From positions 13,958,501 through 14,022,500 of the forward strand of contig NC_092323.1 in NCBI RefSeq assembly GCF_036785885.1: a stretch of 64,000 nucleotides of DNA, read 5' to 3'. Of this stretch, positions 17,601 through 50,350 are shown one piece after another. Origin of the DNA: Coffea arabica. Taxonomy: Eukaryota; Streptophyta; Magnoliopsida; Gentianales; Rubiaceae. The position numbers were made by a program, and so were the translations under genes. Position 1 is the first letter of the stretch; every line of letters begins with the position of its first letter. The notes beneath the pieces were generated by a model. It did no database searches. It was not told the origin of the DNA and was given only the letters and a program-made list of their open reading frames with translations.

Positions 17601-19189
17601 ACTATCGGTTGTAAATTTCCTAGAAAACCCATAAGTAAAAGGACCACAGAAATCTCATATGGAACTTACAATTACAGGTCAATCTGCCAAATATATGCAC
17701 TTGGGGTAGTTATTCTAGTGCTCTGATCTCCATCCAACAACACTCTATTAATTTTCTTCCCAAAGTAGAGATCTTTGAGAGGTACTTGCAAAGAAAAGTG
17801 GACAACCTTATAATCTATCTTGGTCAGCTAAAAGGGACAAAGATACACTCAAATAGGAAAGAAGATATGAGAGTTTTCATCTTTTGAAAGAATAAATGCT
17901 ATAAAAACTAACATTGGACCAAGTAACAAAATCTTGGGTAGGTAAAATGCAACTAAGTCAATAAAAATGTGTGGAGAGGTAACATTGCAATTGATGACCT
18001 GAAATAAAATGTACTCTAAACAAGATTCCGAATTCTAAAGACATATCTTTTCTATACTTTTCGCGTAAGGACCTTCATACATTAGCGAGTTTATATGCAT
18101 GTCTTACGTGGAGGGAAAAAAAAAAGAGCTTCAAATGTAAATAGAGACTATATGGTGCATATGACTCCGCTGGTATAAAAATAATTCTACATTAACCATG
18201 TAAAGAAAATTGACCTGAACCCTAATCCTTGCCTAATTGTTATAGTAAGACTACTATAGCTGTATTATTAATCAGTCTTTGACGTGAGACCTTAATTTTA
18301 AGAATGATTAAGACTCCATACCAGATTTACCAGCAATCATCATTCATCTTCTCTCTGTGTTGTCTTGCATGTGTGTGTGTGCGCTATGCTGTCGAATGGT
18401 GATGCAAGTTGAATTGTCAATTGGCTATATATGAATTAACGACTAATAATGTAACCATCACATGGCTATTCTTATAAAAATATATAGTGCTAGCACTTGT
18501 ACTATATTAGTATTAATTAATATATGCTTTCAGAACTTTTATTAATCATCATTCATTTCATCTCTATCTCTTTCTCTTCTGCAAGAAAGGAAAACAAATG
18601 CAAAAGAGGGATTAATTTCTTGAAACAGGTGCCGCAGTATATTCTACAGCCAATATTTAACCATAGGAATTCGTTTGAGCTGATGCCATTATACAGGCAT
18701 ACATTATCCAGAGTACATTTTGACGAATGTAGTGTTGATTTGTAATGATTTAAGAATTTGCAGATATAGTGAAGTTGTTTGCTCCAAAAATACCGTGAAC
18801 TAGCAAAAGAAAAATAAGCCAGACAAAAGTTCCATGAAACCAATTTCCATATGAGCTGTCTTTGTAACAGTAACATAAGATGTTGTGTCTGTCCATGGGA
18901 ATATGGGAGAACAGGACTGAATTTATTTAGAGGTACATGATATACATTTCTAGTTATTTTTGGTACAAGAGGTGGGGTTAGCATATTAGCGTAAGGTCTT
19001 CATATATATAGAGCTAAAAGATAAATAAAATTACTAAATATTCCAATAGCACTTGATTTAATAAGTGTCGGGTTGAGTTTGGTTCGCTAATTAATCAAAT
19101 CAAATTTGAAAGGCGTTTGTATTTGATAATATTCAAGTGCAATAAAAACTTATTCAAACTCGATTTGGCAAATAAACACGTCAAATTTG
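17601..19189. other. Intergenic, no gene seen
   Basis: AT-rich sequence with a short TG run near 18370. A 143-codon minus-strand frame (18553-18984) has no domain or homology I recognise and a cysteine- and leucine-rich, low-information composition; I do not call it a gene. Confidence 0.4.
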
Positions 19190-19909
19190 ATCAAAATTTT
19201 AATCTCGTTAAAATAATCAAACAAGTTTGAACACTGGGTATTCAACTTAAATAAGCTCGTTTACTTTCTTACACATATGGACATGGTGGATTAATCTTTC
19301 TCATACTGACAGCGTATACACTGTTAGATTGGATGAATGACAATTATGTAAAATTTGAATTTGAACACCAACTGTTCCATATGTGTTATGGATCCAATGA
19401 TATAAAGTGCATATACTGTCGATATATATAAGATTTACTCTTTAAAATTTGGACAAAAAAACTGCCATTTATTAATACGAGTTTGATAACTTGTTGCTTT
19501 ATGATACTGCAAGTCTTGTATATCATGTCCTTTAGTCCCCTGACCTCAGATCAAATTTTTAATCTCGTTAAAATAATCAAACAAGTTTGAACACTGGGGC
19601 ATTCAACTTAAATAAGCTCGTTTACATCCTTACACATATGGACATGGTGGATTAATTTTTCTGATACTGACAGCGTATACACTGTTAGATTGGATGAATA
19701 ACAATTATGCAAAATTTGAATTTGAATACCAACTGTTCCATATGTGTTATAGATCCAATGATAGAAAGTGCATATACTGTCAGTGTATATAAGATTTACT
19801 CTCTAAAATTTGGACAAAAAAACTGCCATTTATTAATACGAGTTTGATAACTTGTTGTTTTATGATACTGCAAGTCTTGTATATCATGTCCTTTAGTCCC
19901 CTGACCTTA
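19190..19909. repeat. 360-bp tandem duplication
   Basis: Units 19190-19549 and 19550-19909 align end to end with scattered substitutions and a few indels. Each begins ATCAAA followed by TTTAATCTCGTTAAAATAA and ends TCCCCTGACCT-AG. No coding content. It sits about 80 bp left of the foldback element at 19990. Confidence 0.9.
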
Positions 19910-19989
19910 GGTAAGAGATAGGCTGGTAGGATTTAAAGAATTTGGCTAGTAAAATACCATGTTAAAGAATGGAATAATAGAAATCCAAA

Positions 19990-21253
19990 GGGAAAATCGT
20001 TCGAAATATCTTTCACATTTTGCAAAATAACTTTTTTTGTTCCTTACTTTTAAAAGTATAATTTTACGTCCCTTACAAATTCGCATTGATCAAATTTGGT
20101 CCCTACTTAGATTTTCAACTAGATTTTAGTCGGAATCCACAATGTTCCTTAGACGTGATTATTTTTGAGAGGTAAAATTGTCAAATCAAATTTTATATAA
20201 TTCGATTTATAGTCCCTTACATTTCACAAAATGAATTTTTCGTCCCTCACATCTCACAAAATGAATTTTTTCATCCCTCATATTTCATAGAATGGATTTT
20301 TTTATTTCTCATTAACCATGTGTATGAATAGTTTTTTTTAATCTACGTGTATATCTATTTGATTTCACCTGAATGGTACGAATAGTATGTAATATATATT
20401 TATTTGATTTCATCTAAACAGGTTAATTGTAATTATACACATGCTATTCAATAAATATATACATGGGTTTAAAACTAACAATTTTATTTTAAACCCATGT
20501 ATATATCTATTTGATTTCACCATGTGAATTTGATCAATTTTGTGGTCTTTTCTCTTTTGATAATAATTCATTTATTGAGTTGCATAATAAAACCATCTAA
20601 TTAATGGGTCCTAACTCGAATTCTATAATCATGCTAACAAATTGCAGTTTAAATTTGACGTTTACACTCGCCACCTTTAAGACCAATAGTTGAATTACTT
20701 ACCTTGTGATTGTCTTAAAATTTAAAAGTGTCAATTACTTACTTCTTTTTGTTATAATTTTCCTTTAATTATTTTTTTGTCCAAATTTAATTCGATATAA
20801 ACACTCGACAATGTTCAAATTATTTGATTTTGTCTAAATAGGCTAATTATAGTTGTATACTCGTATTGTTCAGGTGAAATCAAATAGATACATACATGGA
20901 TTTAAAAAAAATTATTCATACACATGATTAATTAGGGATGAAAAAATTCATTTTATAAAATGTGAGGGATGAAAAAATTCATTTTGTGAAATGTGAGGGA
21001 CAAAAAAATTCATTTTGTGAAATGTAAGGGACTATGGATCGAATTGTATAAAATTGATTTGACAATTTTGCTCTTAAAAAATGATCACATGCAAGACACG
21101 TAATGGATTCCAGCAAAAGATTAGTCGGAAACTTAGGCAGGGATCAAATTTGACCAATGTGAATTTATAAGTGACGTAAAATTACACTTTTAAAAGTGAG
21201 AGATGTAAAAAATCATTTTACAAAATTTGAGGGATATTTTGAATGATTTTTCC
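19990..21253. mobile_element. 1.26-kb foldback element, MULE-like
   Basis: The arms are long imperfect inverted repeats: the left starts GGGAAAATCGTTCGAAATATC and the right ends with the complement of GGAAAAATCATTCAAAATATC. The flanks AAATCCAAA (19981-19989) and AAATTCAAA (21254-21262) are a 9-bp duplication with one mismatch. Within the arms the motif GAGGGA(T/C)GAAAAAATTCATTTT is repeated several times. No transposase frame. Confidence 0.7.
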
Positions 21254-30982: not shown

Positions 30983-32273
30983 GGTGGAGATTAGATAGGA
31001 AATGCAGTGAGGAAGAGTTTGAAGTGAGTGTCTGAAGAAGCTTGATTAATCCGAAAGTTCGAACCCACGCCGAGAAGTATTCGTCGGAAGATTTGCGTCA
31101 CCGGAACCCTCACGAAACTTCGTCGATGTTCTGCTTCGCTTTCATGTTTCTGCGGATTCTTTTAAATCTCTTTTGGGAAATTTTTGTTTTTCAATTTTAA
31201 TCGACCATAATTACGTAGGTGCTATGTAATTATTTTCCTTATATATTTATCATGTTAGTATTAGATTGTCTATTTAAAAAATCTTATAGTAGTTATTTTT
31301 TTTCGATGTTAGCAACATTTATTATCTTGTGAATTTTTTTGGTACTCTTAATCCTAGGATTATATACTTTTTTTCCTCACATATAAAATTGATGGTTTCA
31401 GGGGTATATTTTATGAATTAATTACTTATCCAGATCCTTTTCACGTAACTTAACACTGAAAACCATAAATATATATATACATATATATATATATAATTTC
31501 ATGAGAAAGACTTTTACAAATGACTATATTTTTAATTGCATGCTTGTACATAGAGTAATCCTTAAAATACTACTTATTATTACTTGTAGGCTCAAGCTTG
31601 ACAATAATGTTACATCAAATTCTGAAAACTTTAACTTGATTAATTAAGCCAAATTTCAATTGGATTCCATTTGTTAATAACTCTATTGATCTGCTATGAT
31701 AATCGATGAGCCAAATAGGCTGAAAAGTGAATCCATCTTGCCTAAGTTTTGAGGTGAAAAAAAGGATTCTTTTTACCAAAATAAAAAGTTTGTAGTATGA
31801 TTTGGTTGTCATTTTTTAAAAAATTAGATGCTGTGTGGTTCTTTTGGTATAGAGTTGATTACATTTATCTCACCTGAGAGTCGGCCAAACTATCAATCGG
31901 CCTCCAAAAATCTAAAATTCACCAATCCAAATGATCCTCTCTTGTCCGAAAGAAAAGCTTTTTTTTTCGATTAATCTTTTCTATGCTATCAGTGTATATA
32001 TTAACGAGTTTAAATACATGTCACATCTTTTTAATTTAAATTTAAAATTAAATTTTGCATATGTGATGACATGCATCTAGATTCGTAACTGTATACACTA
32101 ATAGTAATATTCGTAACTTTTGAAATCATTGATGATTTCTTGCTTCTTTTGAGGATCCATTTGCAAGAGTACACAATGTGGGAGGATGCTAAAAGTTTAT
32201 GCAGGTCCACATGCCTTGGTAGCCATGGCATGTATGGGGCTTCCGATTACTGCATTTTCTGAACTCAATCGCT
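30983..32273. other. MIC60 5' flank and intergenic
   Basis: The GC-richer stretch 30983-31160 directly upstream of the MIC60 start is probably its leader and core promoter, though I see no clear TATA box. Beyond it the sequence is AT-rich, with an AT microsatellite at about 31468-31495. No gene is supported. Confidence 0.4.
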
Positions 32274-32545
32274 TCACCTTCTTCCACCACATTCCTCTAC
32301 TCCTCTTATGGGAAGTGTCAGGAAAAAAGCTGTTCTTCTCAACGAATTATGTCGAGGCATCGATGCGTTTGATGAATTATGCAGGGAATTTTGTTGTAAG
32401 CATTGCCATCGCAGCTTGATGCCTTCAAATTCATCGATGATTTCCTCACCACCGTCCAAGCAAATCATCAATAATGACTTGTTATTGGCAGACTTTTCAG
32501 CATTTCGTTTTCTTGCTGGACTGTTCACCAAGGTAAGATTTCACT
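32274..32545 (-). pseudogene. Inverted fragment of an AATP-type AAA-ATPase gene
   Basis: The minus strand encodes EKSANNKSL followed by LDGGEEIIDEFEGIKLRWQ and then SSNASMPRHNSLRRTAFFLT. This matches residues just upstream of the AAA domain in the 35.4-37.3 kb gene (DKSANSKSL, DEFKGVMVRWQ, SSTESM...AKKSFVLTF). Farther upstream YLGEQSSKKTK is in another frame, so the copy is frameshifted. No Walker motifs follow. It is bordered at about 32552 by transposon sequence. It lies opposite in orientation to the larger copy about 3 kb away and lacks the hAT insertion. A dead partial duplicate. Confidence 0.75.
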
Positions 32546-34160: not shown

Positions 34161-34326
34161 GACCGTGAACCGTCCCCCTCTCCGGCTTCATTCATCAAAC
34201 CTAAAGTGTCATATTTATTGAATGTAAGGATTTAGACATTTTGGATTCTAATCTCCTTTCTTTTTCACCACTTCTTAAGATCCACCTCTCTTCTATTAGA
34301 AAAAATAAAAATTTCTTTATAAAAAA

Positions 34327-34797
34327 GGGCAAATTACATTTTACCTCCTGTAGTTTAGTATTTTTTTACATAACCATCATATGGTTTCAAAAGCAATATA
34401 TAACCCCCTCATGGTTTGGATTAAAGTATCAAAGTGACGAAAATAGTCCTTCGTATCGAAACTTTTAAAAATATCGAAATTACCCTTATAAATACATGAT
34501 ACACTAATCCCGTATGATTTTTATATTTCACCATATAACCTCCTTATATTTTAATGTTTTACCATATAACCCCCTTATAGTTTTCAAAATATACACATAA
34601 CCTCTCTTGGTTAATAAATAATTTTCAACTTTATATAAGGGTATTTTTGATATTTTAGATGACTCCGTTATGAATGATCATTTCCATCACTTTGACACTT
34701 TAATCTAAACTATGAGGGGATTATGTATAACTTTTGAAACCATAGAGGAGTTATGTAGAAAACACTAAACTACAGGGGGGTAAAGTGAAATTTGCCC
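34327..34797. mobile_element. Palindromic MULE-like MITE
   Basis: A 471-bp inverted repeat: the left end GGGCAAATTACATTTTACC matches the complement of the right end (GGGCAAATTTCACTTTACC). Arms share TAGTTTAGT, TTTGAAACCAT and TTTAATC-AAAC blocks. Both flanks read TTATAAAAAA (34317-34326 and 34798-34807), a perfect 9-10 bp duplication. Confidence 0.8.
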
Positions 34798-35343
34798 TTA
34801 TAAAAAAAAGGATAGAAAAATGGGGACAATCTGTCACAAATATTTCTCGAACTTAGAGAATTTCTTGCCTTTTGTTTAAGAGGGTTCTACATTTTTTTTT
34901 TCCTGAAGAACTTTACCTGTATTCTGTTTTACAGCTTGGTTGCATTTAGGACGGCATCATTTTGCTAATAAAGGATTACTGATGTAAGTTTCCTTGTCCT
35001 TGAGTTTTGATTTCTTTACAATCTAATAATGGCTGCTTTTGGCTTAATTTATTCAGCCATAAGACACACATGTTGCTTAGTGCCGAAAGCATCAAGAACA
35101 GGTTAATCAAGAACTAGGAAACAATACTAAAGCTTAAGCATTGGAAACTTAATGTACTAATGATACTCCATTATTAGCCAAAAGTGGCCATCCAAATTTG
35201 AAAATTGCTTCAAGATGGGAATGATGGAAACTTCTTCGTATGAAACCCAGAACTTCTGTAGCTAAAGGCTCAATCAAGCAACAAAATTAAACGCCTGCAG
35301 TCATATACTGTACACATGATTAATTAATGGCTACTTTTCTTCT
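34798..35343. other. Upstream flank of the AAA-ATPase gene
   Basis: No recognisable coding content. It probably holds the distal promoter of the gene starting at 35449. Confidence 0.4.
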
Positions 35344-35351
35344 CTATAAAT
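35344..35351 (+). promoter_or_regulatory. TATA box of the AAA-ATPase gene
   Basis: CTATAAAT lies about 100 bp upstream of the ATG at 35449, giving an expected start of transcription near 35375-35380. The in-frame ATG at 35350 overlaps the TATA box, so it cannot be the translation start. Confidence 0.55.
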
Positions 35352-35448
35352 GATAACCACTGCAATCAAACATGGAATCAGAAAACCACAGATTATCCAC
35401 ATCAACAGAAGCTTTCTTTTGCAAGTGAATCATACTCAGAATTCCAAA

Positions 35449-37347
35449 ATGGAAGGAACATCTGGGGATGTCTTTACAAAGCTAGCCGGATTCGTGTTCG
35501 TCTTGAGCACAATTCAGCAGCTTGTTCCAAAAAGACTTGGCTCTTTCTTGGGGCATTTGTGTGACAAATTGTCACTGTTTTTCGATCCTGACGTTCATGT
35601 CACATTCAGTGAGTACAATTCTGGTGTGAGAAATGAAGCCTATTATTTCATTGAAACGTACCTTGGTACCAAGTCTAGCAAGAAAGCAAAATGGCTCAAG
35701 GCTGATAAGTCAGCAAACAGCAAATCTTTGGTCATTACCTTGGATGAAGGTAGAGCTGTTAAGTCAATCGAGTAGCTCGAAAGCTCGTTAGAGCTCGGCT
35801 CGTTAATTTTGGTTAACGAGTCGAGCTCGAGCTCGAAACATGCTCGTTTAGTTAACGAGCCGAGTAAGCTCGGCTCGTTAGATACTCGAGTAGCTCGTTA
35901 GAGCTCGTTAATGAAGGGCATATTTGTCATTTTAGAAATCAAAATTATAAAAATTAAAGATTATAGGTTTTTATTAAGATTAATTTGCACGAACTCGAGC
36001 TCGAGCCACATGTTTGTGATAAACGAGTCGAGGTCGAGCTCGAGCTCGAGCCACATGTACATTTAACGAGCCGAGTTCGAACACATTTTAAAACTCGTTT
36101 TCCTAACGAGCTCGAGTCAAGCTCGGCTCGAATTAAACTCGAGTCGAGCTCGGCAACCAAATACTCGGCTCGACTCGGCTCGATTAACAGCTCTAGATGA
36201 AGGGGAGGAGATCGTTGATGAATTTAAAGGTGTCATGGTTCGATGGCAAGGCTTGAAAGAAACTATCCAGCTTAATTCGTCAACTGAATCGATGCGTCCA
36301 ACAAATGATTTGTTCGCGAAGAAGAGCTTTGTACTCACTTTTCATAAGAAAACTCGAGGGATCGTCACAGAAGCATACTTAAACCACGTCATGGAAGAAG
36401 GCAAGGCAATCCAATTCAAGAATAGCACTCGAAAGCTCTATGCAAACAACAAAAGTTACAATTGGCAGTATGAAGGGATGTGGAGCTGGATAAATTTCGA
36501 GCATCCAGCTACATTTGATACTCTAGCAATTGATCCTTGCAGGAAGCAAGAAATCATTGATGATCTTAGGACTTTCAAGAAGGCAAAAGATTATTACGCG
36601 AAGATTGGCAAGGCTTGGAAGCGCGGATATCTACTCTATGGCCCTCCAGGAACTGGCAAGTCGACAATGATTGCAGCCATTGCCAATTTTATGGACTATG
36701 ATATCTATGATCTTGAACTCACATCGGTTAAGAGCAATGCTGAGTTGAAGCAGCTATTGATCGATACCACGAGTAAGTCTGTCATTGTGATTGAAGATAT
36801 CGATTGCTCTCTTGATCTCACTGGAAAAAGAAAGAACAAAAATGATGGAACTGAGAGGGATGATCAGGCGAATAACCGGAGAGTTACACTCTCTGGGCTT
36901 CTGAATTTCATTGATGGAATTTGGTCAGCATGCGGCCAAGAAAGGATCATCATCTTCACTACGAATCATCTCGAAAGACTTGATCCCGCCCTGATTCGTA
37001 GAGGGCGAATGGACATGCATATTGAGATGTCATATTGCGAATTCGAGGCATTCAAGATTTTGGCTAAGAATTACTTAGGCATTGATTCACACCCTTTATT
37101 TCGAGAAATCAAGCTTTTATTGGAGGAAATCAACATAAGCCCCTGTGATGTGGCTGAGAAATTGATGCCCAAACGTGATTCACAAGATGCTGAGGATTGT
37201 TTGAAGGACCTGATTTTAGCTATGGAAGCTGCCGAACGAAAAGCAAAATGCAAGGAAGCCAAACCCAAGAACTTGGTGGCTGAATTACTAAAGAATTTGG
37301 CTTGCTTCAAGAAGTCAATGAAGCACCTCAAACTCAAAGCCGGGTGA
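35449..37347 (+). CDS. AATP1-type AAA-ATPase, coding sequence split by an hAT element
   Basis: A membrane-anchored plant AAA-ATPase of the BCS1-related AATP/ASD family (stress-induced members at ER or mitochondrial membranes in Arabidopsis). The N-terminus MEGTSGDVFTKLAGF...STIQQLVP carries a hydrophobic anchor; the ASD region follows. The AAA core has Walker A GPPGTGKS (36640-36663), Walker B VIVIEDIDC, sensor FTTNH and the DPALIRRGRMD arginine motif. The gene is a single frame, as is usual for the family, except that 35751-36195 is a transposon. Without it the frame runs straight through (TTG GAT GAA GGG GAG GAG) and would give 481 residues. Read as is, a stop occurs at 35773-35775. Possible outcomes are a truncated N-terminal peptide, a protein started at ATG 36235 (370 residues, AAA domain intact, no anchor), or a protein from splicing inside the transposon (see findings). 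Family firm; functional state open. Confidence 0.8.
35751..36195. mobile_element. Non-autonomous hAT element inserted in the AAA-ATPase exon
   Basis: A 445-bp element with ends TAGAGCTGTTAA...ATCGAG and the complement (CTCGATTAACAGCTCTA). It is flanked by a perfect 8-bp duplication GATGAAGG (35743-35750 and 36196-36203). Subterminal regions are dense in GAGCTCG and CTCGTTA; the centre is AT-rich. No transposase frame. The perfect duplication suggests a fairly recent insertion. Confidence 0.9.
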
Positions 37348-39559: not shown

Positions 39560-40062
39560 AAAGGATAAAATGCAGTTTACTCTCCTGTAATTTAACGATT
39601 TTTCACATAATTTTCCTATAATTTTAAAAATTATACCTAACTTTTTCATGATTTGGATTAAGGTATCAAAGTATTAGAAATTATCTTGCACAACGTAACT
39701 CACAAAAATATCGAAATTACTCTTATTTAAAAACTAATATGATTGAAGTGATCAAAATATATAAACATAATATGCATGATATTTTAATTTCTTATAATTA
39801 TGCATTTTATCATATAACTCCCTTATAATTTAGTGTTTTACCACATAATTTTTTTATGGTTTTCAAAATAGATACATAATTTTTTGTGATTAATAAATTA
39901 TTTTTAACTTTATATAGGAATACTTTTGATATTTTAATTGATTCCGTTATGAAATATAAATTACTTTAATTCAAATTATAATAGAGTTATATACAGCTTT
40001 TAAAATCATAAGGAGTTATATGAAAAAGCGCTAAACCAGAAGAGGTTAAAGTGTAATTTACC
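39560..40062. mobile_element. Old foldback element related to the 34.3-kb copy
   Basis: The ends GGATAAAATGCAGTTTACTC and the complement of AAAGTGTAATTTACC, and the internal blocks AATTTAACGATTTTTCACATAA and TTTTCAAAATA, parallel the 34327-34797 element but are much more diverged. No target duplication is recognisable. It ends near the presumed start of the next gene's leader. Confidence 0.55.
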
Positions 40063-49588: not shown

Positions 49589-50055
49589 CTGGAGCTGAAC
49601 CAAGTAGCTCGGTTCGAGCTCGCGAGCTACTTGGTCAGCAGCTCGAGCTCGAGCTCGATTGACCAAGCTCGATCTCGAGTTCGAGCTGCTCGTTAGAGCT
49701 ATCGAATCGAGCTCAATTTTGGAAATATGATACTCGAGAGTTCGACGAGCTCTATTGAGTTTTTTATAATATATATTTTAATTTTTATTATTGTAAAATG
49801 TCAATAATATCCTTTATTTAAAATTATATATAAAATATTAATTTTTATTACTTGAGCTTGATTAAACTTGATTGAGCTCGAATAAGCTTGATTGAGTTTG
49901 ATTTGAATTAATTACATTTAATTAAACTCGAGCTCGAGTTCGAGCTCGAGTTCCATAAATTGATGTCGAGCTCGATCTCGAGTTCAGTTATTTTGCCTCG
50001 AGTTGAGCTCGAGTAATGCACTACTCGAGCTCGACTCGACTCGACAGCACCCCTA
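49589..50055. mobile_element. GAGCTC-rich hAT-like element next to the bHLH promoter
   Basis: The outer parts are dense in CGAGCTCGAG motifs with an AT-rich centre, the same design as the hAT element at 35751-36195. The right end, read on the minus strand, starts TAGGGGTGCTGTCGAG, and the left end starts near CTGGAGCTGAACC. No convincing target duplication was found. It begins only a few bases upstream of the TATA-like box. Confidence 0.55.
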
Positions 50056-50153
50056 TGTATGACCCTCCATATGGGTTTTGTTTTATCATGTTTTGCTTAA
50101 AAAAATCGAGAACCGACCGAGAGAGAGAGAGAGAGACCGTACATTAGGACTTA

Positions 50154-50350
50154 GGAAAACTGAAAGGTTCAATAATGTAGTGAAATCTGAAAACTCACTC
50201 GAGGTAGGTTAGGACTTAGGAAGCCTCCTTCGGATGGCTGGGAAGAAAGAGAAGGAAAACTGAAAGGTTCAATAATGTAGTGAAATCTGAAAACTCACTC
50301 GAGGTAGGTTAGGACTTAGGAAGCCTCCTTCGGATGGCTGGGAAGAAAGA
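50154..50350. repeat. Near-perfect 100-bp tandem duplication
   Basis: Units start at 50154 and 50254, both GGAAAACTGAAAGGTTCAAT, and are identical through GGCTGGGAAGAAAGA. Immediately upstream is a GA microsatellite (about 50119-50136). No coding content is apparent. Confidence 0.93.

Follow-up and report, generated by a model that had tools for sequence, protein, structure and literature searches.

Can a transposable element that lands in an exon be removed as an intron, or does it simply destroy the gene? The question is raised by a locus of Coffea arabica where a 445-bp insert breaks the open reading frame of an AAA-ATPase gene that consists of a single exon (35449-37347, ATG at 35449). 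The window, meaning the whole stretch of DNA analysed (64,000 nucleotides), is G000:C14:13958501-14022500, and the sister chromosome of C14 is C13; coordinates given without a prefix are those of the window. The insertion, its empty site, the splice-like signals and the frame are established.

The host gene

Translation of the flanks joined without the element gives an AAA-ATPase of 481 amino acids. Read unspliced, the frame runs for 108 codons and stops at 35773-35775, in agreement with the sequence-only reading of this DNA, which had claimed an early stop within the insert. The Pfam domains AAA_assoc, AAA and the At3g28540-like lid all lie in the one exon and identify the gene as a BCS1-like plant AAA-ATPase. 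For the 3′ half of the ORF the top-scoring solved relatives are chains of the mitochondrial chaperone BCS1. The remaining 481 codons are free of frameshift or stop, which favours splicing. The gene has numerous relatives elsewhere in the genome and may be dispensable, which counts against splicing. Two repeats that are ~67% alike (34324-34796 and 39560-40062) flank it.

Table 1 Features of the insertion locus and its surroundings.
Feature	Position	Strand	Detail
AAA-ATPase ORF, 5′ part, AAA_assoc	35449..35749	+	PF14363 2.4e-12; ends at candidate donor
AAA-ATPase ORF, 3′ part, AAA domain and At3g28540-like lid, stop 37345-37347	36204..37347	+	PF00004 1.9e-21, PF25568 1.2e-29
Non-autonomous hAT-type MITE, 445 bp	35751..36195	+	40 copies compared, this one included; 36/40 have an 8-bp duplication with 0 or 1 mismatches
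Left target-site duplication GATGAAGG	35743..35750	+	present once at C13 empty site
Right target-site duplication GATGAAGG	36196..36203	+	identical to left duplication
Left TIR TAGAGCTGTTAA, supplies T of GT donor	35751..35762	+	12/12 match to right end
Right TIR TTAACAGCTCTA, bears candidate acceptor AACAG/CTCTA	36184..36195	+	12/12 match to left end
Candidate 5′ splice site, GAAG then GTAGAG; G from duplication, T from TIR	35750..35751	+	U1 duplex -6.5 kcal/mol
Candidate acceptor 1, AACAG	36189..36190	+	intron 441 nt, 485 aa
Candidate acceptor 2, CTCTAG	36195..36196	+	intron 447 nt, 483 aa
Candidate acceptor 3, GATGAAG	36201..36202	+	intron 453 nt, 481 aa; identical to the original protein, by the coordinates
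Degraded AAA-ATPase relative, frameshifted, near host gene	32110..32544	-	corresponding site without insertion

The element and its family

A whole-genome search returned 637 first-look candidates, of which the best 40 were scored and all 40 read with their flanks. The 8-bp duplication is perfect in 31 of the 40 and carries one mismatch in five; the other four are L008, L094, L097 and L121. The terminal inverted repeats (TIRs) are exact at both ends in 36/40 copies and show one substitution in three. L097 was left out of the family alignment because its right end is not at the expected place, and the 39 aligned copies differ from the consensus at 3-19 positions each over 439-482 nt. The 8-bp duplications and the low divergence from the consensus mark it as a young hAT-type MITE family. 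The best 40 of the 637 candidates show the features of the hAT superfamily: an 8-bp duplication, short TIRs and small, high-copy, homogeneous members. The claim in the sequence-only reading of a hAT-type element in a one-exon gene is thus upheld by the identical GATGAAGG duplications, the 12/12 inverted ends and the 36/40 copies with a duplication.

The 445-bp copy contains stops in every forward frame (7, 3 and 17). The exact 12-nt TIR occurs 1075 times genome-wide (105 for a reversed-pattern control), is preceded by G 357 times, about one third (control 50), and by AGG 38 times (control 2). The whole insert folds much more stably than shuffled sequences (z -10.9, 0/100 shuffles as good). Within the window copy, a short stretch in 35990-36058 seems to have been replaced by a repeat that the element carries further downstream, in contrast to the 11 of 38 other copies compared here. 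A second MITE-like, GAGCTCG-rich element at 49604-50054 was considered and is not a family member, as its ends differ (...GACAGCACCCCTA). A pattern search of viral collections returned 83 stretches and a protein search of the same collections no match. The matches listed in a literature search with the TIR string held no title on a plant transposon, and a search on such events or on coffee MITEs gave no title on this locus, which does not prove absence.

An empty site on the sister chromosome

The contigs form sister pairs with 96-99% identity across the four gene pairs compared, and the accessible text of PMC11018527 dates the polyploidy of C. arabica to 350-610 ka. C13 carries the empty site, i.e. 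the same gene region without the element (...TTGGATGAAGGGGAGGAG...) and with a single GATGAAGG. In the comparison of C13 with the window flanks, the longest block has 98.3% identity over 7976 columns and shorter blocks have 74-100%. The C13 copy (G000:C13:12201933-12203055) is itself a pseudogene with eight indels, six of which are not multiples of three, and in a BLAST comparison window positions 35200-35666, start codon included, have no C13 counterpart. Since the C13 region is element-free and has separately lost its 5′ part and acquired indels, the insertion is real and the C13 copy is dead for other reasons. Another candidate, L006, was rejected as a shared insertion: its duplication GATGGAGG resembles GATGAAGG, yet L006 is another locus.

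Candidate splice sites

The sequence-only reading had placed the exon end at 35749 and its resumption at 36191, and the junctions GAAG/GTAGAG and AACAG/CTCTA are indeed found there. Its further claim, that removal of 35750-36190 (441 nt) restores the frame, was borne out by translation, which gives 485 amino acids against 481 for the joined flanks.

The donor at 35750 is the strongest among the GTs listed in 35449-36209, and of the 6162 GTs counted over the two strands only 163 are equal or better, which puts it in the top 2.6% of the window; both observations favour splicing. Two native donors are better still, that of a CSI-like gene in our own gene model (-7.2 kcal/mol) and that of a cytochrome P450 gene (-7.7 kcal/mol). 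The acceptors at 36190, 36196 and 36202 follow one another at 6-nt steps and are all in frame with the donor, which is likewise in favour of splicing.

Base composition argues the other way. Plant introns are known for their AU- and U-richness, and the two native introns have 68.5% and 69.2% AT and 36-45% T. The candidate intron, with 56.2% AT and 27% T, shows no AT contrast to the exons (58.0-58.1% AT). The insert had been described as AT-rich, a description that fits only about 35901-36000 (72-74% AT) and fails overall (56% AT against 58% in exons and 68-69% in native introns).

A search of 36090-36190 for YTNAY matches placed a branch A at 36106, 84 nt upstream of 36190, and at 36187, 3 nt upstream; neither lies where a consensus branch site would normally be found for acceptor 36190, which argues against splicing. 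The A at 36187 is 15 nt upstream of acceptor 36202. Folding of naked RNA also argues against splicing, with the donor (unpaired probability 0.04) and acceptor 36190 (0.01) both in a strong stem. Acceptors 36196 and 36202 are largely unpaired (0.66-0.85), so acceptor 36202 may be more reachable than 36190. A genome search for a retrocopy of the spliced form gave one match with 2 mismatches, the same as the control, a result that counts against splicing.

The reading frame and chance

The net gain on removal of the 441 nt is 8 nt from the duplication plus 5 nt (CTCTA) minus the G of the donor, or +12 nt. From the sequence of the ends, the same +12 nt is predicted for any insertion of the MITE family whose duplication ends in G. 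This gain follows from the size of the duplication (8 bp) and from the letters of the TIR, which makes the fit of the frame a lesser surprise than it seems. Neither element length nor insertion phase affects the frame, although one reading phase can meet a stop. Either orientation would work because the ends of the element are inverted repeats.

In a simulation the element was inserted in turn at each position of four coding stretches from the window, with 30 nt at each end excluded. An in-frame GT-AG product free of stops resulted at 251/1386, 548/3069, 447/2565 and 406/2067 sites (17-20%), and the duplication ended in G at 23-24% of the sites in the four stretches. The in-frame fit taken by itself is therefore weak evidence: given an exonic insertion, the coincidence of frame is a one-in-five or one-in-six event.

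Other copies near coding sequence

Ends of the type AG/GTAGAGCTGTTAA number 38 in the genome, and 31 of these were read, three among the 40 copies and 28 more. One of the 28, a 477-bp element of the same family at C2:4988417 (L165/L184, G000:C2:4987700-4988662), was shown to lie at the end of a coding exon. Ahead of it are 77 open codons that match a cytochrome P450 (PF00067 4.3e-13), in an exon that ends at C2:4988430 on the minus strand, and it splits the native 5′ splice site, so that a GT donor is present on each side (CTACAG/GTAGAG...element...CTACAG/GTATGG...intron...CTGCAG/GAGGAG). The exon sequence is open on both sides of the intron, and the site on the sister chromosome C1 is empty (AAACTACAGGTATGG). 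The donor formed with the TIR has -8.0 kcal/mol and the native donor -7.7. If the TIR donor is used, the P450 mRNA would be wild type and the element would merely enlarge the intron. We count this copy in favour of splicing of the window element, as the same TIR donor would there yield a wild-type mRNA.

When their flanks are joined, the 40 best copies include a single one placed deep within a long open frame. At L119 (G000:C12:1280342-1283783), a putative gene, the element sits directly after the final sense codon of a 201-codon open stretch and before its TGA, and the protein would be unchanged because the initial TAG of the element is a stop in that frame. Open stretches of 58, 70, 65 and 57 codons were found at L166, L168, L173 and L191, respectively. 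L187, with 57 open codons before the element, matches only itself and a site on C11 and was not retained as a coding insertion.

Age of the insertion and selection on the gene

The duplication and the TIRs are by themselves uninformative on age, with 0 differences in 40 bp. The window copy has four changes absent from all 38 other aligned copies; two of the four fall in one complex change resembling the repeat 36035-36058, and on our reading two are clean point changes in 445 nt. Among the best 40 of 347 candidates scored with the middle 126 bp as query, no full-length match exceeded 89% and one partial match covered 53 bp at 92%, so no unsampled close source appeared. The four private changes and the lack of a close match in that search suggest that the insertion is probably not brand new.

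Had the gene been neutral since the insertion, the probability of an undamaged ORF would be 0.45, 0.24, 0.10 or 0.016, depending on whether two or four private changes are used and whether the indel rate is set low or high; when a broader range of divergences was assumed, the values spanned 0.011-0.58. The intact ORF therefore weakly favours continued use of the AAA-ATPase gene after the insertion. At equal neutral rates, the chance that six frameshifts and the 5′ loss would all fall on C13 is one half to the seventh power, or 0.8%. Such damage to C13 is not expected if both copies were neutral, so the window copy was probably under selection for part of the time since the split.

Substitutions were polarised where at least 6 of 8 paralogs (four sister pairs) agreed. 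A hand count over the 30 differences considered, three of which adjoin an indel, gave 5 nonsynonymous (N) and 0 synonymous (S) changes in the window lineage and 11 N and 3 S in the C13 lineage, with 11/30 left unpolarised; five further differences at the misaligned 5′ end were dropped by hand. By this ratio the window lineage shows no sign of constraint, which argues against splicing. A strict N/S test on that lineage was rejected, as the changes are too few.

Competing explanations

Our preferred reading, which we infer at an even chance, is that the spliceosome removes the element as a new intron, probably partially, and that a working protein results. A young non-autonomous hAT-type MITE would have inserted into the single exon of the BCS1-like AAA-ATPase on one of two sister chromosomes. 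The final G of the duplication and the TAGAG start of the element would together form the left junction AAG/GTAGAG, a usable 5′ splice site, and the right TIR with the duplication would provide three in-register acceptors (36190, 36196 and 36202). Excision would probably occur in only some transcripts, perhaps via more than one acceptor. The spliced products would have 485, 483 or 481 amino acids, and unspliced RNA would stop after 108 codons.

The same locus could be a plain knockout, a serious possibility that we place a little short of even, in which the mRNA retains the element or ends in it, the product is a 108-codon stub and the gene is a fresh pseudogene, too recent to have gathered other damage, with splice-like ends as a chance by-product. 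An in-frame fit that 17-20% of exonic sites would also give, an insert with no AT contrast to the exons and splice sites buried in a stem are all consistent with it, and the C13 sister copy is already dead and many relatives exist. If the insertion is young, a neutral gene would also have had a fair chance of keeping its ORF (up to 0.45; 0.58 over the broader range of divergences), but the private changes suggest some age. The quality of the donor at 35750 and the three acceptors in register are not what a knockout would predict, and hAT elements of maize are known to be spliced from exons. It is very unlikely, in our judgement, that splicing takes another path, in which acceptors of the element or internal GT/AG sites are joined to upstream cryptic exon donors (e.g. 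35609, TCA/GTGAGT) or to downstream acceptors, with shortened in-frame or broken products. For donors in 35600-35999 and acceptors to 36329, 78 GT-AG pairs keep the frame open, the three main candidates included, and the U1 energies at 35609 and 35626 are -5.2 and -5.4; however, no listed donor is stronger than 35750, which adjoins the element, and the upstream sites are older than the insertion and the gene holding them is read as a single exon.

Relation to known systems

Insertions of the maize hAT elements Ds1/Ds are reportedly spliced from exons as introns (Adh1-Fm335, Giroux 1994 and others), and this behaviour of hAT elements in maize is long established. New here are the empty sister site, the fixed +12 arithmetic, the two extra in-frame acceptors and the P450 copy. 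The window element resembles Ds1/Ds in being a hAT element with an 8-bp duplication, intron-like in an exon and with splice signals near its ends, and in the accessible text on Ds1 that element also starts with TAG. According to the same portion of PMC5432752, the donors of Ds1 are found at a depth of 12, 22 or 33 bp within it, and splice sites were observed for only one orientation. In the window the G of the donor comes from the duplication, and the element would work in either orientation, unlike Ds1, because both its ends carry the same signals; splicing of Ds1 has been reported, whereas the window element is known from its sequence.

Introners of Aureococcus add 12 bp, or four residues, made up of 4 bp of element and 8 bp of duplication, as excerpted from PMC9860276. 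The geometry is nearly the same here (5 + 8 - 1). The accessible part of that survey reports none found in land plants. As in Introners, the splice sites would come from element and duplication, at the level of sequence. Introners, however, supply a genome with numerous spliced introns, and of the 40 copies read here a single one is placed deep within a long ORF; multiple copies in the role of coding-gene introns were not found in this set or among the 28 further ends. As few of the examined copies are in coding sequence, the MITE family is not called Introners. We consider it unlikely that the family is a frame-neutral intron maker, a land-plant counterpart of Introners in which any duplication ending in G would give GT...AG and +12 nt whichever way the element points, reserve acceptors would often be present, and a sizeable share of exonic insertions would be spliced and tolerated.

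Insertion of a transposon into AGGT gives precise intron gain, as described in the portion of PMC3443670 available. The P450 copy is similar to this case, lying in AGG^T with an mRNA that would be unchanged, and use of acceptor 36202 would do likewise; in contrast to that case, the element at the P450 gene entered a splice site that was native. At the window site the sequence is AGG^G and a GT is formed only once the TIR has joined it, another difference from insertion into AGGT.

The birth of an intron in a land plant is difficult to observe while it happens. At this locus the transposon route to introns is directly testable, since the empty site, the inserted site and a second, independent locus with the same TIR donor share one genome, that of a crop with published RNA data. 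With the gain fixed at +12, what looked like a coincidence becomes something predicted of each copy of the family.

Other repeats in the window

Positions 19189-19910 hold a tandem repeat with two copies of some 361 bp (95%), and 19990-20384 forms an inverted pair with 20858-21253 (82%). An exact 98-bp repeat with 100-bp spacing is present at 50153-50350.
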